Origin: Deltaproteobacteria bacterium | GTDB taxonomy: Bacteria > SZUA-79 > Acidulodesulfobacterales > Acidulodesulfobacteraceae | NCBI GenBank assembly: GCA_023489335.1 | Contig: JAMDCP010000002.1 | Coordinates: forward strand, 186,001-250,000 | Direction: 5' to 3' | DNA: 64,000 bases | Part shown: positions 2 through 13,902 of the stretch, piece after piece | Numbering within the stretch: position 1 is the stretch's first letter | Layout: every line of letters begins with the position of its first letter | Translations under genes and position numbers: made by a program | Notes under the pieces: generated by a model | Databases searched by the model: none | The model's input: only the letters and a program-made list of their open reading frames with translations | Told to the model about the DNA's origin: nothing

Positions 2-784
2 GTTGAGGTAAAGGAAGGCTATGCCGAAGGGATTAAATTCGAATTCCTATTTGCTTTAGACGAAATTATTACCGAAAACGGAAAAGCCGCCGCCGTTCGT
101 CTCAAAAAAATGAAGCTTTCGGAAAAAGACGCTTCAGGCAGGGTCCACCCGATTATAATAGAAGGCGGACAGGAACTCACCTTAAAATTAGATACGCTAA
201 TATATTCATTCGGTCAAAAGCCCGATTATAAAGGCCTTGAAAATCTTACTAAAAATCCGAATAATGAATTTCTCAAGGTTGACGATAATTATCTGGTAGC
301 CAACGAAGATAAGGTTTTTGCAGGCGGCGATATATTAAAATTCGGATTAGTTACGGATGCTATAGGAATGGGCAGATATGCGGCATATTCCATACATCAA
401 AAACTAACCGGAGAACCTGCAAAGAAAGACGAAAGAACCGTCATTAAATACGGAGACGCAGTAAACAGGGAAGGTAAAAATATGTATATTGCATATTTTC
501 AGGCTTCCGAAAGACAAAAAAGAACATCGAGGGATCCCTTAGCCAGGGTTAAAGATTTCGACGGGATTTTAAACGATCTCGGCATGGATGAATTAATCAT
601 GGAGGCAAAGAGATGCATGAGCTGCGGTATGTGTTTCGACTGCGGAAGCTGTTTCGAATACTGCTCGCAGAGCGCCGTTAAAAAATTGCCGAAGGGGCAG
701 CATTTCGAATTCCACTTAGAAACCTGCAACGGCTGCAAGAAATGCGCAGAGGCCTGTCCTTGCGGCTATATTGACATGATTTAA
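2..784 (+). CDS. dsrL: DsrL-like NAD(P)H:acceptor oxidoreductase, C-terminal part (5' truncated by window edge)
   Basis: The reading frame is open from base 2 and lacks its start, so about 260 C-terminal residues are visible. They show the end of a glutamate-synthase-small-subunit-like FAD/NAD(P) module (VFAGGD followed by a GMGRYAA helix, the usual flavin-closing motif). After a linker comes a ferredoxin-like tail with two clusters of cysteines (CMSCGMCFDCGSCFEYC and CNGCKKCAEACPCG). This fusion of a GltD-like module to a C-terminal 4Fe-4S domain is the DsrL architecture. DsrL passes electrons between NAD(P)H and DsrAB and is classically found in rDsr sulfur oxidisers, with some reducers carrying a second type. 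The gene directly precedes dsrC (54 nt gap). A generic GltD-like oxidoreductase is the main alternative; the dsr context argues against it. Confidence 0.8.
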   Translation, partial: VEVKEGYAEGIKFEFLFALDEIITENGKAAAVRLKKMKLSEKDASGRVHPIIIEGGQELTLKLDTLIYSFGQKPDYKGLENLTKNPNNEFLKVDDNYLVANEDKVFAGGDILKFGLVTDAIGMGRYAAYSIHQKLTGEPAKKDERTVIKYGDAVNREGKNMYIAYFQASERQKRTSRDPLARVKDFDGILNDLGMDELIMEAKRCMSCGMCFDCGSCFEYCSQSAVKKLPKGQHFEFHLETCNGCKKCAEACPCGYIDMI

Positions 785-838: not shown

Positions 839-1180
839 ATGGCTGAATTTGATTACAACGGAAAGAAGATTGAAACTGATGATGAAGGCTACCTTCAAAA
901 TTTAGGCGATTGGGACAAAGGCCTTGCCGAAGTTCTGGCTAAACAGGAAAATGTAACGCTTACGGAAAAACACTGGAAACTTATCGAATGGATCAGGGAC
1001 TATTTCCAGAAGTATCAAGTAGCTCCCGCTATTAAGTCTCTTACAAAAGAAGTTATGAATCTTGAAAATTTGCCCGATAAAAAGGAAGCAAACAAGTTTA
1101 TTTACGAACTGTTTCCCGAAGGTCCGGCTAAACAGCTTGCCAAAATAGCAGGGCTTCCAAAGCCGACCGGTTGCGTTTAA
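839..1180 (+). CDS. dsrC: DsrC/TusE family sulfur carrier lacking CysA
   Basis: This 113-residue protein has the full DsrC fold signature: an EGYLQNLGDW N-terminal motif, a LTEKHWKLIEWIRDYF helix, and the flexible arm ending GLPKPTGCV. The penultimate Cys112 (CysB) is present. CysA, eleven residues earlier in canonical DsrC (GPAKQAC or GPGKGAC), is Ala101 here (GPAKQLA). In known DsrC proteins both cysteines are needed to form the DsrC trisulfide and the intramolecular disulfide that DsrMK reduces; TusE-type proteins keep only CysB. By residue content this is therefore TusE-like, yet it sits between dsrL and dsrM in a dsr operon. The start is supported by aggagg at 824-829, nine bases before the ATG. 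A canonical DsrC may exist elsewhere in the genome. Confidence 0.92.
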   Translation: MAEFDYNGKKIETDDEGYLQNLGDWDKGLAEVLAKQENVTLTEKHWKLIEWIRDYFQKYQVAPAIKSLTKEVMNLENLPDKKEANKFIYELFPEGPAKQLAKIAGLPKPTGCV

Positions 1181-1348: not shown

Positions 1349-2110
1349 ATGGCACCTCTTAATTTGACCACGGCAATATTTTTATTATTTACATACGGGG
1401 TCGGCTTGATTTTTGTAATCGGGGTGGTATTAAGAATATACCAATATGCAACGACGCCCCAACCCGTTAAAATACCTCTTACGCCCGCTCCCTTAACTTC
1501 AGGCGGGGCTTTTGCCAGAATTTTGGGAGAAGTTTTTTTCTTCAAGAGTCTTTTTAGGTCTAATAAGCCGACGTGGGTTTTTGGATATCTTTTTCATATT
1601 TCGTTTTTTATCTTGATATTTATGCACTTTTTAAGGCATTTTATATATTCCAATCCGCTGCCCTGGTGGTACAATATATTTGTCGATATCGGAATAGTTT
1701 GCGGCATTATTATGGTGTTGTCCCTTTTTCTTCTTTTAATGAGAAGGGTCGTTATAGAAAGAGTTAAATTTATATCGTTATTTGCTGATTACTTAATACT
1801 TATTCTTTTAATGCTTATAGGTCTGGCCGGTTTGTCTTTAAATTTTGTTTTGTCTCCCGCTGCCCTGACGACTGTCGATAACCAATTAGATCCTTATATG
1901 AACGGACTTTTAAACTTTCAATTTACGAATATTCCATCAAATCCTCTTTTTTTAATTCATTACACGCTTGTCATGCTGCTCATAGCTTATATTCCGTTCA
2001 GTAAAGTGATGCATTTTGTCGGGATATTTTTCTCGCCGACAAGAATAATGGCTGATAATCCGGAAGAAGAAAGATATTACAGGCCTAACGCGAAAGATTT
2101 ATCTATTTAA
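1349..2110 (+). CDS. dsrM: DsrM, heme b membrane subunit of the DsrMK complex
   Basis: A 253-residue membrane protein with about five to six hydrophobic spans and NarI-like histidines on helices (FHISF near residue 83, FMHFLRHF near 91-98, IHYTL and KVMHF near 211 and 226). These are the expected ligands for two b hemes, as in DsrM and HdrE. DsrM oxidises menaquinol, or reduces menaquinone, and passes electrons to the cytoplasmic DsrK. It is somewhat shorter than many DsrM proteins. The start follows ggggggaac about nine bases upstream. dsrK follows after 68 bases. No dsrJ, dsrO or dsrP lies in the window, so this looks like the minimal DsrMK form, unless those genes are elsewhere. Confidence 0.88.
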   Translation: MAPLNLTTAIFLLFTYGVGLIFVIGVVLRIYQYATTPQPVKIPLTPAPLTSGGAFARILGEVFFFKSLFRSNKPTWVFGYLFHISFFILIFMHFLRHFIYSNPLPWWYNIFVDIGIVCGIIMVLSLFLLLMRRVVIERVKFISLFADYLILILLMLIGLAGLSLNFVLSPAALTTVDNQLDPYMNGLLNFQFTNIPSNPLFLIHYTLVMLLIAYIPFSKVMHFVGIFFSPTRIMADNPEEERYYRPNAKDLSI

Positions 2111-2178: not shown

Positions 2179-3666
2179 ATGGCTAAGCCAAAAGACAAAT
2201 ATAAAGTTCCCGTTCTGGACGGAAAAATTTCAATTCCTAAAATTGTTCCCGGGGCTACGGCTTATGAACACATGATAGAAGCCCAAAAAGATGATATGGA
2301 AGCCCTTGGTTTTCCGGCTAAATTACAGGACGGTTGGAAGGCAAAGGCTATCGGGGTTTTTAAAGAGATATTAGATAACAATAAGGCTGTCAGGGATTAT
2401 ATGGATATTTGCGTCAGATGCGGCGCCTGCACGGATAAATGCCAGTTTTTCCTTGGAACCGCAGACCCCAACAATATGCCGGTTCAGAGGCAGGAACTCA
2501 TGAGAAAAGTTTACAGGTACTATTTTACCCCTTCGGGATTCTTCAAGAGCCTTTCAAACTCACAGGAATTAACCGAAGAAGTTTTAAAGGATTGGTACAC
2601 TTATTTCTGGCAGTGCTCGGAATGCAGAAGATGTTCTCTTTATTGTCCGTACGGCATAGACACCGCGGAAATAACTATGGCGGCAAGGCAGATTATGGAT
2701 TCCATAGGTCTTGGCCAGAAATATACGACGGAAGTTATCCATAAGGTTTTTAAAATCGGGAACAATATTGGAATACCGCCGGCTGCTTTAAGGAATACCC
2801 TTGATGACCTTGAAGAAGAAATTGAGGAAGAGGGCGGAAAAGGCGTTAAAATACCTATGGATGTCGAAGGAGCCGAAGTTTTATTGGTGCCGCCTTCGGC
2901 GGATTTTTTTGCAATGCCCCATATGGAATCCTTAAAAGGATATGCAAAGGTGTTTCATAAAGCGGGTATAAGCTATACGGTTTCATCGTATGCCTCGGAA
3001 GCCGGAAATTTCGGAAAGTTTATAGGAAGTTATAAAAGCACCAAGGAAATAAATAAAAGAATCTGGGATGAAGCAAGAAGGCTTAAAGTAAAAAGGGTAA
3101 TTATAGGCGAATGCGGCCATGCATGGAGAGCGGCATATAACTATTCGAATACCATGAACGGGCCTTTTGATTTTCTCGACAGCAAGTATAAACAGCCCAC
3201 CCATATATGCGATTTCACTTTAGGCCTGGTAAAAGACGGAGTAATAAAGCTTGATCCATCGGCGAACGATGATAAGGTTGTTACATTTCACGATTCATGC
3301 AATATTGCAAGAGCTTCGAGGATGGGCGATTTTCAAGGCGGACAGTTTACGATACCGAGAGAGCTCATTAAAGCCGCCGCAAACCATTTTGTAGAACTAA
3401 GGGAAGGCACTACTAAAGAAAAGACTTATTGTTGCGGTGCAGGCGGAGGTTTGCTGACCGAAGAAATTATGAATGTGCGAATAGCGGGGGCCATGCCGAG
3501 AATGCAGACCGTTAAGGAAGCGGTCGATAATCACGGGGTTAATTTTTATGCCCTTATCTGTGCAATTTGCAAAACCCAGTTTACAAAAATATTTCCTCTC
3601 TACGGGTTCGATGAGGAAATGGTCGGGGGAATTCATCAACTTGTCAGCAATGCTATCGTTTTGTAA
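2179..3666 (+). CDS. dsrK: DsrK, HdrD-like iron-sulfur subunit of the DsrMK complex
   Basis: This 495-residue soluble protein has two 4Fe-4S motifs in its first third (CVRCGACTDKC near residue 78 and CSECRRCSLYCP near 150). The C-terminal half carries CCG-domain motifs (GECGHAW, HDSCNIAR, CCGAGGG, CAICKTQF), which bind the noncubane cluster of HdrD-type heterodisulfide reductases. In the family, DsrK reduces the DsrC trisulfide or disulfide. This creates tension with the CysA-less DsrC encoded two genes upstream. It is co-directional with dsrM and has a gcggagg ribosome-binding site. Generic HdrD homologues are the alternative, but adjacency to dsrC and dsrM makes DsrK the best call. Confidence 0.93.
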   Translation: MAKPKDKYKVPVLDGKISIPKIVPGATAYEHMIEAQKDDMEALGFPAKLQDGWKAKAIGVFKEILDNNKAVRDYMDICVRCGACTDKCQFFLGTADPNNMPVQRQELMRKVYRYYFTPSGFFKSLSNSQELTEEVLKDWYTYFWQCSECRRCSLYCPYGIDTAEITMAARQIMDSIGLGQKYTTEVIHKVFKIGNNIGIPPAALRNTLDDLEEEIEEEGGKGVKIPMDVEGAEVLLVPPSADFFAMPHMESLKGYAKVFHKAGISYTVSSYASEAGNFGKFIGSYKSTKEINKRIWDEARRLKVKRVIIGECGHAWRAAYNYSNTMNGPFDFLDSKYKQPTHICDFTLGLVKDGVIKLDPSANDDKVVTFHDSCNIARASRMGDFQGGQFTIPRELIKAAANHFVELREGTTKEKTYCCGAGGGLLTEEIMNVRIAGAMPRMQTVKEAVDNHGVNFYALICAICKTQFTKIFPLYGFDEEMVGGIHQLVSNAIVL

Positions 3667-3737: not shown

Positions 3738-4088
3738 ATGAAATTTGGTATTCTAATTAAAGACGGCCCATATATGCATCAGGCTATGGATACCGCATAT
3801 AATTTTATAGTCGCGGCAATGGAAATGGGGCATGAAATAACCGGCGTATTTTTTTATAATGACGGGGTTTACAATAGAAGTAATGCTTTGGAACCTCCTA
3901 TAGATGAAAGGAACATCATGAAACTACTTACCGATATTGAACTTAAAGGGGTGAGATTGATAGTGTGCGTTGCCGCCGGAAAGAGAAGGGGAATCGTTAA
4001 TAAAACGGTATGCGAAGTAAATGAAATATCGGGTCTCGGCCAACTTCTCGACCTCTGCATAGCGTCTGACAGAATGATAACATTTTAA
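3738..4088 (+). CDS. dsrE: DsrE/TusD sulfurtransferase subunit
   Basis: A 116-residue DsrE-fold protein. Cys77 lies in LIVCVAAGKRRGI, matching the position of the active persulfide cysteine of DsrE and TusD (about Cys78). The DGVYN motif after strand 2 is also typical. The start at 3738 is chosen over an upstream in-frame codon because gaggagg (3725-3732) is correctly spaced in front of it and the protein then begins MKFGILI as in relatives. It forms a dsrEFH block with the next two genes. Together these encode the hexamer that loads sulfur onto DsrC in sulfur oxidisers, or onto TusE for tRNA thiolation. Confidence 0.9.
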   Translation: MKFGILIKDGPYMHQAMDTAYNFIVAAMEMGHEITGVFFYNDGVYNRSNALEPPIDERNIMKLLTDIELKGVRLIVCVAAGKRRGIVNKTVCEVNEISGLGQLLDLCIASDRMITF

Positions 4089-4121: not shown

Positions 4122-4496
4122 ATGTCTGAACAAGAAAAAACTAAAGTTATGTTTGTTTGTAGAAGTGCGCCGTACGGCAATATTTTTGAGCAGGAAGCTA
4201 TTGAAGCCATGATTATGTTTGGGGCATATGAGCAGGACATTAGCGTCTCGTTTATAGATGACGGCGTCTATTCATTAAAAAAAGGGCAGGACACTTCTTT
4301 GTTGGGGAAGAAAAATTTCTCATTGACATATATGATTTTAAAAGACGATTTTGAAATTAACCATATTTATGTTGAAAAGGAATCTCTTGAGGAAAGGGGA
4401 TTAAACGAAAGCGACCTGATTACGGAGGTTGAAGTTTTGGATAGAAATGCTTTAAGGGAAAAGATGGACGAGATGAAGGCATTTTTGCCATTTTAA
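4122..4496 (+). CDS. dsrF: DsrF/TusC subunit
   Basis: A 124-residue protein of the DsrE/F fold, with the F/C-type N-terminus (VMFVCRSAPYGNIFEQEAIEAM) and the shared FIDDGVYSLKKGQDT motif. The family role is a structural or supporting subunit of the DsrE2F2H2 complex; no DsrE-like CVAAG cysteine motif is present, as expected. A strong aaggagc ribosome-binding site precedes it. It lies 33 bases after dsrE and before dsrH, in the order E-F-H found in sulfur oxidisers and TusDCB loci. Confidence 0.85.
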   Translation: MSEQEKTKVMFVCRSAPYGNIFEQEAIEAMIMFGAYEQDISVSFIDDGVYSLKKGQDTSLLGKKNFSLTYMILKDDFEINHIYVEKESLEERGLNESDLITEVEVLDRNALREKMDEMKAFLPF

Positions 4497-4560: not shown

Positions 4561-4860
4561 ATGCTGCATATAGTTAAAAGATCGCCCTATGAATCATCGG
4601 CTCTTAACGACTCTTTAAAATACATAAAAGAAAAAGACATATTGCTATTAATCGAGGATGGGGTGTATTCGGCAAAAAAGGGAGGGAAATTCGAGAACCT
4701 CTTAAAGGGCGTTTTACAGAATAACGAGGTTTTTTGCCTAATTGCCGATGTCAAGGCAAGGGGGATTGAAGGAAGCGAAATAATAGAAAATGTTAAGCTG
4801 ATAGATTACAAGGGGTTTGTTGACAAGGTTTGCGAGCAAAATCCTCTAATGTGGGCATAG
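4561..4860 (+). CDS. dsrH: DsrH/TusB subunit
   Basis: A 99-residue protein that begins MLHIVKRSPYES and has the DILLLIEDGVYSA motif diagnostic of DsrH/TusB. The start is set at 4561, after aaggaggg at 4543-4550, rather than at the earlier in-frame ATG at 4516, which has no ribosome-binding site. The cysteine sometimes seen near residue 20 of DsrH is absent; cysteines occur only in the second half (FCLIAD, KVCEQ). It closes the dsr cluster and is followed by about 250 bases of AT-rich, gene-free DNA before sat. Confidence 0.85.
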   Translation: MLHIVKRSPYESSALNDSLKYIKEKDILLLIEDGVYSAKKGGKFENLLKGVLQNNEVFCLIADVKARGIEGSEIIENVKLIDYKGFVDKVCEQNPLMWA

Positions 4861-5112: not shown

Positions 5113-6336
5113 ATGGCATTAGTGAATCCCCACGGAAAAGAAAAGAAATTGAAGCCGTTGCTTTTATCCGGAACGGAACTTAAAGAAGCAAAAGAAAAGG
5201 CAAAAACTCTCAAAAAGCTACCGATGACATCGAGAGAAACATCGGATTTGATAATGATGGGCATCGGCGCTTTTACCCCATTAGAAGGATTTATGGGTAA
5301 AAATGACTGGAAGGGCGTTGTGGACAATTTTACGATGCAGGACGGGACATTTTGGCCTATTCCCATTACCCTCTCCGCTACCGAGGAAATAGCGGATGAA
5401 ATTAAAATAGGAGAGGATGTGGCGCTCGTTGACTTCGAAACCTCGGAGATTATGGGGATAATCAATGTAAGCGAAAAATATTCCATCGATAAAGCATATG
5501 AATGCCAAAAAATATTTAAAACAACGGATATGGAACACCCCGGCGTTCAAAAGGTTATGGCACAGGGCGACGTTAATATTGCCGGTAAAGTCAAGGTCTT
5601 GAGCGAGGGTTCATATCCTACCGAATTTAAAGAAATTTATATGCGTCCCGCAGAGGTAAGGAAAATATTCGAAGAAAAGGGCTGGAGCACCGTTGCCGCT
5701 TTTCAGACGAGGAACCCTATGCACCGCTCGCACGAATATCTTGCAAAGGTCGCGATAGAAACTACCGATGGCGTCTTAATCCATCAGCTTGTCGGCAAAC
5801 TAAAGCCGGGGGATATACCCGCTAATGTCAGGGCAGTTGCTATAAATACATTAATCGATAAATATTTTGTAAAAAATACGATTGTTCAGGCAGGCTATCC
5901 TATGGAGATGAGATACGCAGGTCCAAGAGAGGCGCTTCTTCACGCGGTTTTCAGGCAAAACTACGGCTGTTCGCACCTGATTGTCGGAAGAGACCACGCC
6001 GGGGTAGGGGATTATTACGGGCCGTTTGACGCGCATAAAATATTCGATGAAATTCCCAAAAATGCCCTCGAGTTGAAGCCGTTAAAAATGGACTGGACAT
6101 TTTATTGCCACAAGTGCGACGGTATGGCATCCACCAGGACTTGTCCGCACTCAAAGGAAGACAGGCTTATTTTAAGCGGAACAATGCTCAGAAAACTGTT
6201 ATCAGAAGGGCAGGAAGTACCGGAACATTTTTCAAGACCCGAGGTTTTAAAAATATTAAAGGAATATTATGCTTCCCTTGCAAAAGAGGAAAAGGTCGAG
6301 GTTAAACTGCACAAGGCTGCGAAGGGCGAAATATAA
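5113..6336 (+). CDS. sat: Sulfate adenylyltransferase (ATP sulfurylase)
   Basis: A 407-residue homo-oligomeric-type ATP sulfurylase that converts sulfate and ATP to APS and PPi (or the reverse in sulfide oxidisers). Visible motifs are [14 protein letters not shown] (the QxRNP plus HxxH nucleotide site), [15 protein letters not shown] and, near the C-terminus, a CHKC plus TCPH cysteine/histidine set that binds zinc in the prokaryotic dissimilatory enzymes. Length matches the family. It has a cggagg ribosome-binding site. It heads a run with aprBA, qmoABC and hppA, so PPi removal and electron supply are encoded alongside. Confidence 0.97.
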
Positions 6337-6391: not shown

Positions 6392-6445
6392 AAATGCAGC
6401 ATTGTTTTATTTAAATAATAATATATTAATTAAGGAGGTATGAAA

Positions 6446-6880
6446 ATGCCAAGTTTTGTAATTGCGGAAAAATGTGATGGTTGCAAAGGGAGAGATAAGA
6501 CTGCCTGCCAGTATATCTGTCCCAACGATCTTATGGTTCTTAACAAGGACATCATGAAGGCTTATAATCATGAACCGGATCAGTGTTGGGAGTGTTACAG
6601 CTGCGTAAAAATATGCCCCCAGTCCGCCATAGAGGTAAGGGCATATCAAGATTTTGCTCCGATGGGTTCATCGGTTATTCCGTTGCGCGGTTCCGATTCC
6701 ATAATGTGGACGGTAAAATTTAGAAACGGAAAGATTAAAAGGTTTAAGTTCCCTATCAGAACAACGCCGGAAGGGGGAATTGATCCGTATCAGGGGCTGC
6801 CGGATATGAATCAGGAAAATTTAAAAAACGAATTACTTTGTGACGAAATCGGCTCTACGCTTCTTGCTCCTAAGAAGTAA
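6446..6880 (+). CDS. aprB: Adenylylsulfate reductase beta subunit
   Basis: A 144-residue ferredoxin-like subunit with the AprB start MPSFVIAEKCDGC and two 4Fe-4S motifs (CDGCKGRDKTACQYICP and CWECYSCVKICP), followed by the beta-barrel tail. It carries electrons from Qmo to the FAD of AprA for reducing APS to sulfite and AMP. The ATG at 6446 is preferred over the one at 6440: taaggagg ends at 6438, leaving seven bases to 6446 but only one to 6440, and known AprB proteins begin MPSF or MPTY. The beta gene precedes the alpha gene, as usual. Confidence 0.95.
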   Translation: MPSFVIAEKCDGCKGRDKTACQYICPNDLMVLNKDIMKAYNHEPDQCWECYSCVKICPQSAIEVRAYQDFAPMGSSVIPLRGSDSIMWTVKFRNGKIKRFKFPIRTTPEGGIDPYQGLPDMNQENLKNELLCDEIGSTLLAPKK

Positions 6881-6934: not shown

Positions 6935-8872
6935 ATGGGAATCATGGTTGAACCAAAAGGTTCGTTGACAAGCACGGAAGTGCTCAACAACTACAAAATT
7001 GAAGAAATAAATACCGATCTTTTAATTGTCGGCGGCGGTATGGTTGGATGCGGCGCGGCATTCGAGGTTAAAAAATGGGCGCCGAAAGATATGAAAATAA
7101 CGATGGTTGAGAAGGCCGCTATAGAAAGAAGCGGCGCTGTTGCAATGGGGCTTTCCGCAATCAACACTTATCTTGGAGAAGAAAATACTCCTGAGGATTA
7201 TGTGAAACATGTTGCAAACGACCTTATGGGTATTGTAAGGGAAGACCTTATCTATGATGTAGGCAGACATGTCGATAGCTCCGTAAAGTTATTCGAGAAA
7301 TTCGGGCTTCCGATATTTAAAGAAGACGAGGAAGACACAAGGACTATAGCGGAAGGCGCAAAACCTATGAGAGCGGGAAGATGGCAGATAATGATTCACG
7401 GTGAATCATACAAAGTTTTAGTTGCCGAAGCCGCAAGGAAAGCGCTTGGAGAAGAAAATATTTATGAGAGAGTTTTTATTATCGAGCTCCTTATGGATGA
7501 AGGCAAGGAAAACAGGGTTGCAGGCGCCATAGGATTCAGCCTGAGAGAGGCCAAAATATACATCTTTAAAGCAAAAGCAGTAATTATGGCATGCGGCGGC
7601 ACGGTCAATGTCTTCAGGCCGCGGTCTCAGGCCGAAGGAATGGGAAGAACCTGGTATGCCGTGTGGAATGCCGGTTCTACATATGCCATGGCATATAATG
7701 CCGGAGCCGAAATGACCACGATGGAAAACAGGTTTGTTCCTAACAGGTTTAAAGATGGCTACGGGCCTGTCGGTGCATGGTTTACCCTGTTTAAATCAAG
7801 GGTTATAAATGCCCATGGCGAAGATTATATGCAAAAGTGGGGAGAAATGCTTAAAGATTATCCCCCGTACGGACTTGCCAAGATTCCCGCAACATGCTTA
7901 TGGAATCATGTTATGTTGAAGGACTGGATGGAAGGCAATGGTCCGTTTTATATGAATACATCCGGCGCAATGAAAAAGCTTTTCGAAACGCTTCCCGAAA
8001 AGAGGAAAAAATCTCTCGAAGCAGACGCTTGGGAAGACTTCCTCGATATGACCGTTGCCCAGGCAGGACTCTGGGCCGCAATGGATATCGATCCTCAAGA
8101 AACAAACTCCGAGGTTATGCCGACGGAACCATATTTTCTCGGTTCGCATTCCGGCGCTTGCGGAATATGGGTTAGCGGCCCCTCCGATATCGCTCCTAAG
8201 GAATGGCAGTGGGGTTATAACCGTATGACGAGCGTGAACGGACTTTTCACGGGCGGCGACGGAGTCGGCGCGTCCGGCCATAAATTCTCTTCCGGTTCAT
8301 ATACGGAAGGAAGAATAGCCGCAAAATCTGCGGTAAGGTTTATTCTGGATGACCCGGGCTTTACCCCTACCGTGCATACCGACAACCAGACTTTAGCCGA
8401 AAGAATATATGCCCCTATGATTCATTTTGAAAAGAATAAAGGTTATTCGACCGAAGAGGGTGTCAACCCACATTATATTAGGCCAAGGATGTATTTGTTC
8501 AGGCTTAATAAACTGATGGACGAATATGTTGCGGGCACATCGACATTCTACAGAACAAGCGAAGCGAACCTCTTAAGAGGGCTGGATTTGTTAAACAGGT
8601 TAAAAGCCGATGCACCTAAGCTCGCAGCAGCTACTTTACATGAACTCATGAGGGCTTGGGAAAATTATCACAGGTCCATTGTCGGGGAACTTCACCTGAG
8701 GCACGTATTGTTTAGACAGGAAACAAGATACCCGGGCTTCTATTACAGAATGGATTACCCGCACCTGGACGAGCAAAACTGGAAGGTATTCGTTAATTCT
8801 AAACTCAATAAAGCAACAGGCGAGCCCGATTTATTTAAAAGGGATTATATTGAATTAGTTCCTAAGAACTAA
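6935..8872 (+). CDS. aprA: Adenylylsulfate reductase alpha subunit
   Basis: A 645-residue flavoprotein of the fumarate reductase/succinate dehydrogenase family, the catalytic subunit of dissimilatory APS reductase. The N-terminus has the dinucleotide fold (DLLIVGGGMVGCGAAFE). Typical AprA stretches follow: ERSGAVAMGLSAINTY, MACGGTVNVFRPR, and FTGGDGVGASGHKFSSGS near the C-terminal part of the FAD domain. Length is normal for the family. A taaggag site lies ten bases upstream. It works in the cytoplasm with AprB and is fed by the QmoABC genes that follow. Confidence 0.97.
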   Translation: MGIMVEPKGSLTSTEVLNNYKIEEINTDLLIVGGGMVGCGAAFEVKKWAPKDMKITMVEKAAIERSGAVAMGLSAINTYLGEENTPEDYVKHVANDLMGIVREDLIYDVGRHVDSSVKLFEKFGLPIFKEDEEDTRTIAEGAKPMRAGRWQIMIHGESYKVLVAEAARKALGEENIYERVFIIELLMDEGKENRVAGAIGFSLREAKIYIFKAKAVIMACGGTVNVFRPRSQAEGMGRTWYAVWNAGSTYAMAYNAGAEMTTMENRFVPNRFKDGYGPVGAWFTLFKSRVINAHGEDYMQKWGEMLKDYPPYGLAKIPATCLWNHVMLKDWMEGNGPFYMNTSGAMKKLFETLPEKRKKSLEADAWEDFLDMTVAQAGLWAAMDIDPQETNSEVMPTEPYFLGSHSGACGIWVSGPSDIAPKEWQWGYNRMTSVNGLFTGGDGVGASGHKFSSGSYTEGRIAAKSAVRFILDDPGFTPTVHTDNQTLAERIYAPMIHFEKNKGYSTEEGVNPHYIRPRMYLFRLNKLMDEYVAGTSTFYRTSEANLLRGLDLLNRLKADAPKLAAATLHELMRAWENYHRSIVGELHLRHVLFRQETRYPGFYYRMDYPHLDEQNWKVFVNSKLNKATGEPDLFKRDYIELVPKN

Positions 8873-8999: not shown

Positions 9000-10310
9000 A
9001 TGTCAAACAAATCTACCAGCGAAAATCCAGTTTTAATTATAGGCGGCGGGCATAGCGGAGTTTCTGCCGCCCTTGAAATCACCGAGGCAGCAAATAAAAA
9101 GGTTTATATTGTCGAGAAAAGGCCTTATTTGGGCGGAAGAGTTTTGCAAATGTATAAATACTTTCCGAAATTGTGTCCCCCGTTTTGCGGATTCGAGATA
9201 AACACTAAACGGATAAAGTCGCCTTTTGAAAGTAATATAAAATTTTTTGTTTCATCCACCGTGGAGGAGATTGCTAAGGAGGAAAACGGAACCGGGTATA
9301 TAGTTAAAATAAGGCAAAAGCCGCAGTTTATAAATGATAATTGCACGATATGCGGCGAATGCGCTAAGGTTTGCCCTGAGGCCCGGCCAAACGATTTTAA
9401 TTATGATATGGATATGACAAAAGCTATATATTTGCCAAACATATCTGCATTTCCGTTAAAATTTACGGTAGATGAAAAGTATTGCAAGTTTTCGTCCTGC
9501 AAAAAGTGTGAAGAGGTCTGCAAATATAACGCAATTAATCTTAATGCAAGCGAAAATATTTTTGAACTTAAAGTTTCCGATATTATTTTCGCTTCAGGTT
9601 GGAAGCCTTATAATGTGGAAAAATTGGAAAATTTGGGCTTCGGTAAATTTAAAAATGTTATTACTAATGTTATGTTGGAAAGATTAGCATCGGATGGCGG
9701 TCCAACGGGCGGCAAAATATTAAGGCCGTCGGATGGTAAAGAGGTGAATAATGTTGCCTTTATCCAGTGCGCAGGGTCGCGAAACGAAAATCATCTCCCG
9801 TATTGCTCCGCGGTTTGCTGCATGGCTTCTTTAAAACAGGCTCTTTACTTAAGAGAAAAAAATCCCTCCTCCGCTCCGACAATCTTTTATATAGATTTAA
9901 GGACACCCGGAAGATATGAAAATTTTCTTAACAGAGCGACTTGCGATGAAAACATCAAGTTTAATAAGGGTGTTGTGGGGAAGATTTCGGAAGAAGCCGT
10001 GTCAAACAATCTTATATTAGATGTAGAGGATATTCTTTCCGGAAAAAAGATGAAATTTACAGCTGAAATGGTGGTTTTGGCGGTTGGGATGGTCCCGAAT
10101 ATTAAAGATGATTTGAAAAACATAAAAATAGGCGAAGGTATAAATATAGGCATCGACGAAAATGGCTTTATATTTAATCAAGATGGATTAAACGGTATTT
10201 TTTCGGCAGGAGTTTCAAAGTTTCCTTTAGATGTTTATATGTCGGGCCAATCTGCAACATCCTCGGCGCTTTCCGTTCTTCAACGCAATTATAGAAGGGA
10301 TAATGGATAG
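9000..10310 (+). CDS. qmoA: QmoA, HdrA-like flavoprotein of the quinone-interacting complex
   Basis: A 436-residue HdrA-type protein with an N-terminal FAD fold (PVLIIGGGHSGVSAALEI, YLGGRVLQMYKYFPKLCPPFCG). An internal ferredoxin-like segment has CTICGECAKVCPE and CKFSSCKKCEEVCKYNAI, and a second HdrA block holds FIQCAGSRNENHLPYCSAVCC. QmoA is a cytoplasmic subunit of QmoABC, which connects menaquinol to AprBA. A ccggag site precedes the ATG. It is followed by qmoB and qmoC in the standard order. HdrA of heterodisulfide reductase is the alternative, but the Apr-Qmo context is decisive. Confidence 0.93.
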   Translation: MSNKSTSENPVLIIGGGHSGVSAALEITEAANKKVYIVEKRPYLGGRVLQMYKYFPKLCPPFCGFEINTKRIKSPFESNIKFFVSSTVEEIAKEENGTGYIVKIRQKPQFINDNCTICGECAKVCPEARPNDFNYDMDMTKAIYLPNISAFPLKFTVDEKYCKFSSCKKCEEVCKYNAINLNASENIFELKVSDIIFASGWKPYNVEKLENLGFGKFKNVITNVMLERLASDGGPTGGKILRPSDGKEVNNVAFIQCAGSRNENHLPYCSAVCCMASLKQALYLREKNPSSAPTIFYIDLRTPGRYENFLNRATCDENIKFNKGVVGKISEEAVSNNLILDVEDILSGKKMKFTAEMVVLAVGMVPNIKDDLKNIKIGEGINIGIDENGFIFNQDGLNGIFSAGVSKFPLDVYMSGQSATSSALSVLQRNYRRDNG

Positions 10311-10404
10311 GCTATAGCCGTCATTCTAAGGTTAAATCAAATTTAATAATAAGAGTAAAGCAGCTAAAAAGATTGAAAAGGTTTATTTGTAAAGAGGGGT
10401 AACG

Positions 10405-12717
10405 ATGGATAATAATGTAGGGGTTTATATCTGTTCGGGATGCGATATAGGAAAAAGCCTCAATGTTGAAAGATTGGTCAATACCGCAAAAGATTCTTTC
10501 AAACCGATGGTGTGTTTAAGCCATGAGGCTTTTTGCGGAGAAGAGGGCATAAATCTTATAAAAAAAGACATTGCCGAAAAGTCGGTCAACAAGGTAGTTA
10601 TCGCGGCGTGTTCTATGCGGGCAAAGCAGGATGTATTCAACTTTGACCCCCTAAATGTGCACACCGAAAGGGTTAACCTGAGAGAACATGTCATATGGGT
10701 AAGCCCTCCAAATGACAATAACACACAGCTTCTTGCCGAAGACAACATCGGAATGGGCATTGCCAGGGCCAAAAAGGCGGAATTTCCGGAACCCCTTGTC
10801 CAGGAACTGAATAAAACTATTTTAGTTATCGGAGGCGGCGTAACCGGTCTTAATTCTGCCCTTAATGCGGAAAAAGCTGGATACAGCGTTGTTTTAGTCG
10901 AAAAAAAGTCTAATCTCGGCGGTTTTCCGTATTCAAAATATAAAAAATGGGAGGCCAATCCCCCTTTTGATAAAAATATCTTAATCAAAAACGGAATGGA
11001 CGAACTCATAAGCGGGGTTGAAAATTCCAAAAATATTAAAATTTATAAAAATTCAAAAATAAAGTCTATTTCCGGCGCTCCGGGAAGATTTAATGTGGAA
11101 ATAGAGTCCGAAGGCGAAAGCAATAAAATAGATAACATAAATGAGAACATCGGCGCTATTATAGTTGCAACGGGTTGGAAACCGTACGACGCAAAAAAGT
11201 TAGACTATTTAGGTTACGGTTTGACCCCGGATATTTTGACCAATGTGGAATTAGAAGAACTTTACTCGGACTTATATCAGGACGGTAAAAATGAAAATTT
11301 TACGATAAAAAGAAAATCTAACGGTGAAAATGTTAAGTCTGTTGCCTTTCTACAATGTGCCGGTTCCAGGGACGAAAACCATTTGCCTTATTGTTCGACC
11401 GTTTGCTGCATGTCGTCGCTCAAGGAGGCTGCGTTATTCAGAAAAAATAACCCCGATGCCAATGTATATATAATTTATAAAGATATTAGAACACCGGGCG
11501 AATATGAAAATTTTTACAGAAAGATGCAGGACGACGAAGGTTTGTTTTTGATGAAGGGCATTATTTCGGATGTATCTTTCGATAAAGGCAGTAACATTAT
11601 CAGCTTAAAAGTAAAAGATACTCTTTTCGGCGGGGATATCGATTTAGATGTCGATATGCTGGTTTTAGCGGCAGGGATGGTTCCAAATTCAGGCGATTTT
11701 GAGGCAGGTCCCGAAGTAAAATTAGGGTCAGATAACGATAGTGCAGCTAATGCTAACGGCGCGTCATGCGCGGCAACAACCACTGCGGGTTTATCTGTTT
11801 TGCCTAACAAAAGCGGAATACTTAATCTTACATACAGGCAAGGTAAAGAAATGCCCGACCTGGCTTACGGTTTTCCCGATTCTAATTTTATCTGTTTTCC
11901 TTATGAATCGAGAAGAACTGGAATATACCCGGCAGGTTCCGTCAGGGCGCCTATGGATGCCGTTTTTTCCGTTGACGACGCAAAAGGGGCAGCTTTAAAG
12001 GCTATCCAATGCATGGAACAGACTTCGAGAGGCAGGGCAGTCCACCCCCGCTCGAACGATATGACCTATCCGTTTTTTGATTTGCCGAGGTGTACGCAGT
12101 GTAAAAGGTGCACCGAGGAGTGTCCGTTTGGCGCGATAGACGAGGATGAAAAAGGAACGCCGAAGCCTAATCCTGAAAGGTGCAGAAGGTGCGGCGTATG
12201 CATGGGCGCCTGTCCCGTCAGAATTATATCCTTTAAAAATTATTCTCCCGATATTATAGGTTCGATGATAAAAAGCCTTTACATTCCTGAAGACCCGACT
12301 GATGAAAATTACAGAATATTAGTATTCGCCTGTGAAAATGATGCCTATCCCGCGCTCGATATATTAGGCCTTAATAAAATAAATTTATCGTCCAACATTA
12401 GGGTTGTACCCGTCAGATGCCTTGGTTCCATTAATAATGTATGGTATGCCGATGCCCTTTCGAAGGGCATAGACGGAATACTCCTTCTCGGATGCAAATT
12501 TGGCGACGATTATCAATGCCATTTTGTAAAAGGTTCGGAACTTGCATCTTATAGAATGGGAAATCTTAAAGAAACATTGACAAGGCTTGTTCTGGAGGAA
12601 GAAAGAGTAAGGCAGATCCAGCTTGAATTTTCGGATTATATGAAGCTGCCTGAAATCGTGGATGATTTTGTGAATAAAATAAAATCTCTCGGACCTAATC
12701 CATATAAAGGTTTTTAA
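10405..12717 (+). CDS. qmoB: QmoB, HdrA/MvhD-like subunit
   Basis: A 770-residue protein built from an N-terminal HdrA-like extension with CSGCDIGKSLN, an FAD fold (ILVIGGGVTGLNSALNAEKAGY near residue 139), and the HdrA block FLQCAGSRDENHLPYCSTVCCMSS. A two-cluster ferredoxin (CTQCKRCTEECPFGA and CRRCGVCMGACP) follows near residues 560-610. The C-terminal MvhD-like domain has CLGSINNVW and LLGCKFGDDYQC. This order is diagnostic of QmoB. Together with QmoA it may confurcate electrons to AprBA. A stretch near residues 440-460 (SDNDSAANANGAS) is low complexity and may be a loop insertion. Confidence 0.93.
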   Translation: MDNNVGVYICSGCDIGKSLNVERLVNTAKDSFKPMVCLSHEAFCGEEGINLIKKDIAEKSVNKVVIAACSMRAKQDVFNFDPLNVHTERVNLREHVIWVSPPNDNNTQLLAEDNIGMGIARAKKAEFPEPLVQELNKTILVIGGGVTGLNSALNAEKAGYSVVLVEKKSNLGGFPYSKYKKWEANPPFDKNILIKNGMDELISGVENSKNIKIYKNSKIKSISGAPGRFNVEIESEGESNKIDNINENIGAIIVATGWKPYDAKKLDYLGYGLTPDILTNVELEELYSDLYQDGKNENFTIKRKSNGENVKSVAFLQCAGSRDENHLPYCSTVCCMSSLKEAALFRKNNPDANVYIIYKDIRTPGEYENFYRKMQDDEGLFLMKGIISDVSFDKGSNIISLKVKDTLFGGDIDLDVDMLVLAAGMVPNSGDFEAGPEVKLGSDNDSAANANGASCAATTTAGLSVLPNKSGILNLTYRQGKEMPDLAYGFPDSNFICFPYESRRTGIYPAGSVRAPMDAVFSVDDAKGAALKAIQCMEQTSRGRAVHPRSNDMTYPFFDLPRCTQCKRCTEECPFGAIDEDEKGTPKPNPERCRRCGVCMGACPVRIISFKNYSPDIIGSMIKSLYIPEDPTDENYRILVFACENDAYPALDILGLNKINLSSNIRVVPVRCLGSINNVWYADALSKGIDGILLLGCKFGDDYQCHFVKGSELASYRMGNLKETLTRLVLEEERVRQIQLEFSDYMKLPEIVDDFVNKIKSLGPNPYKGF

Positions 12718-12735
12718 CAAATATAGGAGGCAAAG

Positions 12736-13902
12736 GTGGGTACCACGACAATAAAAACTGATAACGATTTAATAAAATATGTCAAAAATGTTGGGGAAAG
12801 CAATTTTAAGAAATGCTTTCAATGCGGTACATGTTCCGCAGTCTGCCCGTTATCTACGGAAGACAGGCCGTTTCCCAGAAAAGAGATGATATGGGCTGGA
12901 TGGGGATTAAAAGAACAATTAGCAAGCGATTTAGACCCATGGCTTTGTTATTACTGCGGCGAATGTTCCAAAAATTGTCCAAGAAAGGCCGAACCAGGTG
13001 AATTAATGATGTCGCTTCGCCGTTTTTTGATAAGCGCTTACGACTGGACAGGGATATCGAAACTTTTATACAAGTCAAAGTATGCCGAATATATTGCTTT
13101 ACTTATAGTTGCGGTTGTCGTTTTTATCGAATGGGCTGTTCTGTTCGGTTTTTCTCCCGCAAGCGGGGCATCGTTAAACCAGTTGGTTTCCCCCGAAAAA
13201 ATAGACTATTTTTTTGATTGGCCGATGACGGCATTTCTTGGGGTCGTTCTTACATCGTTTATTTATAATATGTACAGGAAAACCGTTTTAAGCGATAAGA
13301 GCGTAAAAATTCCTCTAAAACTTTATTTTACGGAAGGCTGGTCGTTAATTTTTAACTTTTTTACGCAGTACAGGTATGCAAAATGCGATGACGGCAAAGA
13401 GCCTTTTTATAAAAAACTTACGGACGGAAAGTATAACTTCTGGTTAACGCATCTTTTTCTCATGATAAGCTATGTTGCTTTATTTGTCGGGATTGTTTTC
13501 TTTTTGGATTGGTTTCAAAAAGAAAACAGTTTTCCGCTCCTCCATATAGTTTTATTTGATTATTTTGCCAGCATAGGGCTTATGTTCGGCACCGTTTATT
13601 TTGTAATTAAAAGGCTTACCAAAAAGATAGAAAGAAGCAAGTTTTCCCATCATACCGACTGGATGTTTATAATACTTTTATTTTTAACCGGTTTTACCGG
13701 AATTATATTGCGTGCGGCCATAGTATATAAACTCCCTGTTCCGTGGATGTTTTATTTATATTTGATTCACTTATTAATTTTGTTCCCGATGCTGGTGATA
13801 GAAGTGCCATTTTCTAAATGGTCGCATTTAGCATACAGGCCTATGGGGATTTATTTTGCAAATTTAAAAGAGAAGGCTAAAAATTTGAGTAAGCAGGTTT
13901 AA
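12736..13902 (+). CDS. qmoC: QmoC, iron-sulfur and heme b membrane subunit
   Basis: A 388-residue fusion of an HdrC-like domain (CFQCGTCSAVCPL near residue 27 and CYYCGECSKNCPRKAEPGE near 73) to an HdrE/NarI-like domain with about six membrane spans and histidines for b hemes (THLFLMISY, HIVLFDY, FSHHTDWMF, LIHLLIL). It takes electrons from menaquinol in the membrane for QmoAB. It starts at GTG; aggagg at 12725-12730 is five bases upstream, and the gap to qmoB is 18 bases, indicating co-translation. Confidence 0.94.
   Translation: MGTTTIKTDNDLIKYVKNVGESNFKKCFQCGTCSAVCPLSTEDRPFPRKEMIWAGWGLKEQLASDLDPWLCYYCGECSKNCPRKAEPGELMMSLRRFLISAYDWTGISKLLYKSKYAEYIALLIVAVVVFIEWAVLFGFSPASGASLNQLVSPEKIDYFFDWPMTAFLGVVLTSFIYNMYRKTVLSDKSVKIPLKLYFTEGWSLIFNFFTQYRYAKCDDGKEPFYKKLTDGKYNFWLTHLFLMISYVALFVGIVFFLDWFQKENSFPLLHIVLFDYFASIGLMFGTVYFVIKRLTKKIERSKFSHHTDWMFIILLFLTGFTGIILRAAIVYKLPVPWMFYLYLIHLLILFPMLVIEVPFSKWSHLAYRPMGIYFANLKEKAKNLSKQV

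Follow-up and report, generated by a model that had tools for sequence, protein, structure and literature searches.

The locus analyzed here raises the question of how a dsr operon can operate with a DsrC that has lost one of its two cysteines. The window, by which we mean the whole 64,000-nucleotide stretch that was analyzed (assembly GCA_023489335.1, contig JAMDCP010000002.1, positions 186,001 to 250,000 of the forward strand), comes from a member of the Ca. Acidulodesulfobacterales (phylum SZUA-79), a group of acid-mine bacteria. In the two-cysteine cycle, two electrons are delivered in DsrAB and four in DsrMKJOP, which reduces the CysA-S-CysB trisulfide (PMC10229431). CysA is described as strictly conserved in sulfur-based energy metabolism and is found in organisms with DsrAB; TusE is found in organisms without DsrAB (PMC3397948).

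The dsrC open reading frame has an ATG start with a ribosome-binding site (AGGAGG) ahead of it, and its product runs from MAEFDYNGKKIETDDEGYLQNLGDWDKGLAEVLAKQ to FPEGPAKQLAKIAGLPKPTGCV, with the C-terminal arm GPAKQLAKIAGLPKPTGCV. In an alignment with A. vinosum DsrC (GPAKQACRFAGLPKPTGCV), Leu-Ala stands where Ala-Cys was: codon 100 is CTT (1136-1138, Leu) and codon 101, at the CysA position, is GCC (1139-1141, Ala). The initial annotation of this DNA had read the arm in the same way, with CysA replaced by Ala101, the Ala before it replaced by Leu, and only the C-terminal Cys112 kept, and had placed the gene between dsrL and dsrMK. The open reading frame and its codons confirm both replacements, and dsrC does lie directly 3′ of dsrL, ahead of dsrM-dsrK. 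Since CysA is replaced and Cys112 (CysB) is the sole cysteine left, an intramolecular disulfide or trisulfide is impossible in this protein.

Both DsrC family profiles recognized the protein (TIGR03342, 138.7 bits; PF04358, 136.3 bits), and its AF2 model (pLDDT 90.3) had DsrC structures as its closest folds, namely A. vinosum 1yx3 (Foldseek E 8e-10) and A. fulgidus 1sau, with D. vulgaris 2v4j (chain C) matched too; A. vinosum DsrC is the nearest solved structure by both sequence and fold. With these canonical proteins it shares the fold, the penultimate CysB (also present in the one-cysteine clade described below), the KPTGCV box, and an operon with dsrL, dsrMK, and dsrAB of the reductive type (typed in PMC6776010). 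It differs from them at the CysA position, eleven residues ahead of CysB, which is Ala here and Val in Desulfurellales, and in the Leu one residue earlier. Like TusE of the E. coli type, it has CysB and no CysA, but it falls below the TusE equivalog cut-off (NF008562, 107.6 bits versus 191) and its host does encode DsrAB (dsrA at G000:C3:182428 of the source assembly). The most fitting description of the window protein is therefore a single-cysteine DsrC variant, one that departs from canonical DsrC in one test and from TusE in two.

Together with the DNA just upstream (L112), the window holds the gene order dsrN-dsrA-dsrB-dsrD-dsrL-dsrC-dsrM-dsrK-dsrE-dsrF-dsrH-sat-aprB-aprA-qmoABC (Table 1). 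DsrK, DsrE, DsrF, DsrH, Sat, AprA, and AprB scored above the cut-offs of their family models; DsrM scored under its own. The dsrD gene (L112:14777-15007) was assigned by homology to its neighbours and position only. Searches of Pfam and NCBIfam at E 0.001 did not call the dsrD of the Acidulodesulfobacterales lineage, and automated annotation may therefore overlook this gene. Reductive-type dsrAB, dsrD, dsrL, and dsrEFH, plus transcripts, were reported for Acidulodesulfobacterales by Tan et al. in 2019 (PMC6776010). Just upstream of dsrN, a cysteine-free protein of 113 amino acids that matched no Pfam family is encoded (L112:10352-10693). Relative to the window, one family cluster (L048) is 68-71% identical in DsrA/B but 92-93% in DsrM/K, and another (L053, AP1) is 86-88% identical in DsrA/B but 61-78% in DsrM/K; such mosaic identities suggest recombination inside the dsr cluster.

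Table 1. Features of the dsr-sat-apr-qmo region in the window
Feature	Position	Strand	Family model or basis
dsrL, 3′ part; 5′ part outside the window, gene begins at L112:15072	2..784	+	
dsrC, single-cysteine variant, 113 aa	839..1180	+	PF04358/TIGR03342
CTT GCC, codons 100-101 of dsrC, Leu-Ala for Ala-Cys (CysA lost)	1136..1141	+	
CysB, codon 112 (TGC) of dsrC, penultimate residue; DsrC-type box KPTGCV retained	1172..1174	+	
dsrM	1349..2110	+	NF038037, E 3.6e-30, under its curated cut-off
dsrK, ferredoxin and CCG-domain cysteines all present	2179..3666	+	NF045796, 528.8 bits
dsrE, active-site Cys present	3738..4088	+	TIGR03012, 101.8 bits
dsrF	4122..4496	+	TIGR03010, 112.3 bits
dsrH, start possibly 4516; Ser in the Cys20 column	4561..4860	+	TIGR03011, 81.7 bits
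sat	5113..6336	+	NF003166, 540.5 bits
aprB	6440..6880	+	TIGR02060, 217.9 bits
aprA	6935..8872	+	TIGR02061, 908.2 bits
qmoA, qmoB, qmoC-like (9000-10310, 10405-12717, 12736-13902)	9000..13902	+	sequence reading of the open reading frames, no family search

We then examined the arm across a family sample of 30 genomes, which includes the source genome. Leu100-Ala101 and CysB were present in all 23 genomes that carry dsrC. Over 22 family sequences, Leu100 was written with four synonymous codons (CTT, CTC, TTA, and TTG) and Ala101 with three (GCC, GCA, and GCT), the arm was otherwise nearly invariant, and the median dN/dS over 48 pairs of family dsrC genes was ~0.05, indicating strong purifying selection. 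Across the whole lineage, the Leu-Ala arm is fixed and under selection. A sequencing or assembly error at 1139-1141 was ruled out, because 22 relatives share the allele with varied codons. As to the origin of the change, CAG GCT TGC AAA versus CAG CTT GCC AAA can be explained by loss of one G and gain of one C, which makes two events versus four substitutions. Since CTT in any case accounts for 32% of Leu codons, passage from Ala-Cys to Leu-Ala through a G deletion and a C insertion is only a suggestion.

A second DsrC with both cysteines, which the initial annotation had offered as one way out, did not turn up: the source assembly (92% complete) contained a single PF04358 match, and no two-cysteine DsrC was detected in it, in the 22 relatives, including family genomes listed as 97-100% complete, or in near-complete Desulfurella genomes. 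The incompleteness of the source assembly and the draft status of the family genomes leave some room for such a copy to have been missed, or for a wrong base call. Against this, 23 genomes share the allele in varying codons and none has a two-cysteine copy, and in the genome of a Desulfurella (100% complete, 2 contigs) both DsrC copies lack CysA; we find this explanation scarcely credible. We instead favor, with a probability of roughly 0.55, the reading that the protein is an authentic, selected, lineage-wide DsrC variant that partners DsrAB and DsrMK and works with CysB alone.

The distribution of dsrC within the family bears on whether the protein could be a housekeeping TusE for tRNA 2-thiouridine that sits in the dsr operon by chance. 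Its single cysteine would suit TusE proteins, which lack CysA, and the cluster also encodes TusBCD homologues (DsrEFH) farther downstream. However, DsrC follows dsrAB. A dsrA or dsrB match was found in 24 of the 30 family genomes, and DsrC was present in 23 of these 24 versus none of the six dsr-negative genomes (Fisher p ~1e-5, kinship ignored); the sole dsr-positive genome without DsrC, G025, has a truncated dsrB match. MnmA was present in all four of the six dsr-negative genomes that were checked, and TusA homologues occurred in all 30 genomes, including all six dsr-negative ones (the source genome has nine TusA-family matches in 1.8 Mb). Dsr-negative relatives, one of them 99% complete, have kept MnmA and TusA but lack DsrC, which makes a housekeeping TusE role unlikely. 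The equivalog score under the cut-off, the absence of the TusE-type CysB box KP[VA][KR]C, and the place of the gene in a complete dsr operon, lost along with dsrAB, point the same way, and overall we regard the TusE explanation as very improbable.

To place the variant in a wider context, 386 genomes were searched for dsrA; outside the family, many bacterial families were thinly sampled. Strong dsrA matches were found in 26 further genomes, 25 of which had a DsrC-family gene, and in 24 of these 25 at least one DsrC copy had both cysteines (QAC or GAC arm). The exception was the 100% complete, two-contig Desulfurella genome (G262), with one copy adjoining dsrAB (GPARQLVRYAGLSKPTGCV) and another elsewhere (GPAKKAAKIAGIKKPVGCV), both without CysA. 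Three genomes of the same order, G386 (D. amilsii), G387, and G400, also had a QLV arm in the dsr-cluster DsrC. In D. amilsii, both copies (loci 1431 and 2056, PMC5317093) lack CysA, the dsr-linked one again reading GPARQLVRYAGLSKPTGCV; this copy is 59% identical to the window DsrC and has Val where the window has Ala. Unlike the family, Desulfurella carries a second, orphan one-cysteine copy, and its dsr clusters have no match to DsrEFH. A DNA pattern for non-Cys arms, run on sets from five phyla, matched only Desulfurellales; as the sets were small (3 to 52 genomes), this result carries little weight. Some other dsrAB genomes hold Ala-type DsrC copies in addition to a two-cysteine DsrC, and the Ala-type copies form a clade of their own (100/98).

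The order dsrA-B-D-L-C-M-K is common to the family and Desulfurella, in agreement with D. amilsii locus tags 1435 to 1429, and the core shared by the two one-cysteine lineages is dsrABD-L-C-MK. DsrMK without JOP has been reported for both Acidulodesulfobacterales and Desulfurellales (PMC10504309). D. amilsii reduces thiosulfate, and an APS reductase was not detected in it (PMC5317093); a proteomic study, as cited in PMC10504309, linked its DsrAB to thiosulfate respiration, and Desulfurellales are described as known sulfite reducers (PMC12998232). Neukirchen et al. show the DsrC of Desulfurellales and Acidulodesulfobacterales branching together, and the word cysteine is absent from their main text; in the literature searched, where coverage of D. 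amilsii proteomics was incomplete, we found no account of the CysA loss. In the G262 genome, which matches D. acetivorans, dsrK is split over two frames and dsrL is fragmented, with dsrC and dsrM intact (G262:C1:1356847-1360919, L172:6847-10919); DsrC and DsrMK were reported as not encoded in D. acetivorans, which was tied to its inability to respire thiosulfate (PMC5317093). In the same genome, the orphan one-cysteine DsrC-like gene adjoins a DsrE-like gene (G262:C1:223035-223816, L173:3035-3816). The initial annotation was thus right about the loss of CysA in the window; that the loss is a lineage-wide trait, shared with a cultured genus, it had not seen.

A maximum-likelihood tree of DsrC, built on 109 columns with columns 100-101 omitted, united the window protein, 15 other family sequences, and four Desulfurellales sequences in one clade (100/100). 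This clade was placed beside the two-cysteine DsrC of dsr operons (83/83), apart from TusE. Within the family clade, Desulfurella took a nested position (99/95), suggesting that the dsr cluster was transferred between the Acidulodesulfobacterales and Desulfurella lineages. On these 109 columns, AU tests rejected neither a grouping of the clade with TusE (p 0.27) nor one with the orphan Ala-type copies (p 0.33), and the TusE result counts against the preferred reading.

The catalytic cysteines of DsrAB and DsrK have been retained. All conserved cysteines of DsrA and DsrB that are shared by two-cysteine reference loci were kept in the one-cysteine lineages, as were all the ferredoxin and CCG-domain cysteines of DsrK. 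No compensating new cysteine common to all one-cysteine lineages was found in DsrA, DsrB, DsrK, DsrM, DsrE, DsrF, or DsrH, and the lack of a lineage-specific cysteine in DsrK, DsrA, or DsrB that obviously replaces CysA also weighs against the preferred reading. Each of the 15 family sequences compared has kept the active-site Cys of DsrE. In the DsrH Cys20 column, whose residue is essential in A. vinosum, L046, L052, and L053 have Cys, whereas most family members have Ser, Ala, or Phe.

These observations also bear on whether DsrC could be the last carrier of a TusA-DsrEFH relay that feeds DsrAB oxidatively, as part of the oxidation of sulfide or sulfur, and take no part in sulfite reduction. 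Such a relay would fit dsrEFH downstream of dsrMK with the active-site Cys of DsrE kept, the TusA homologues throughout the family, the ability of CysB alone to take sulfur from DsrE (PMC3397948), and the proposal of Tan et al. that the pathway runs in both directions (PMC6776010). Yet accepted oxidative models too need CysA for disulfide or trisulfide closure (PMC3397948, PMC13293266), the dsrAB genes are of the reductive type and accompanied by dsrD, and the DsrH Cys20 column has lost its Cys in most of the family. Desulfurella, moreover, is a reducer; because its clusters show the same loss without a DsrEFH match, the loss of CysA is not tied to DsrEFH. The same comparison goes against the TusBCDE-like relay with DsrEFH proposed in the initial annotation, for which the retained DsrE cysteine does speak. 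We consider an exclusively oxidative role unlikely, if worth keeping in view.

How, then, might DsrC work with CysB alone? In A. vinosum DsrC, sulfur is bound by CysB only, a step to which CysA makes no difference (PMC3397948), so a one-cysteine DsrC should still be able to accept sulfur. We infer, at about even odds, that Acidulodesulfobacterales and Desulfurella-type Desulfurellales carry out dissimilatory sulfite reduction by a one-cysteine cycle that uses a persulfide or an intermolecular heterodisulfide, with no intramolecular DsrC trisulfide and a shifted split of electrons between DsrL/DsrAB and DsrMK. In this cycle, sulfur from the siroheme would be passed to Cys112 as a persulfide and would not be closed into a CysA-S-CysB trisulfide. 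H2S could then be released by either of two routes: DsrK might reduce the Cys112 persulfide directly, or a further thiol, either of low molecular weight or from a second DsrC, might attack the persulfide to give an intermolecular disulfide, which DsrK would reduce as a true heterodisulfide. By electron bookkeeping, each sulfite would then take ~4 electrons by way of DsrL/DsrAB and ~2 by way of membrane DsrMK, versus 2 and 4 in the two-cysteine cycle. The extra electrons could plausibly come from DsrL, whose gene directly precedes dsrC in both lineages; the DaDsrL-2 of D. amilsii is an NADPH oxidoreductase (PMC7596348). Against the preferred reading speaks the literature view that organisms with DsrAB strictly conserve CysA (PMC3397948) and that the trisulfide is the substrate of DsrMK.

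The suggestion in the initial annotation that DsrMK acts on another disulfide comes close to this one-cysteine cycle. A more radical version has DsrAB reducing sulfite independently of DsrC and DsrMK acting on some other disulfide, leaving DsrC regulatory or vestigial. DsrAB alone does release some sulfide plus thionates (PMC10229431), and the missing CysA would suit a protein outside the cycle. Yet dsrC is under strong purifying selection, encodes a nearly invariant arm, holds a fixed place in the operon, and is retained only together with dsrAB. This is hard to square with a dispensable protein, and we judge this version quite unlikely.

In the accepted view, sulfite reduction is linked to energy conservation through the CysA-CysB trisulfide, and genome annotation uses CysA to separate DsrC from TusE. 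The exception to the CysA rule described here covers an entire lineage, whose dsr operons are under selection, and a cultured thiosulfate respirer. In these one-cysteine lineages, part of the textbook mechanism cannot operate as drawn, a point open to in vitro testing with enzymes that have in part been purified already (D. amilsii DsrL-2). For annotation, filters that require the two-cysteine motif would throw out likely partners of DsrAB.
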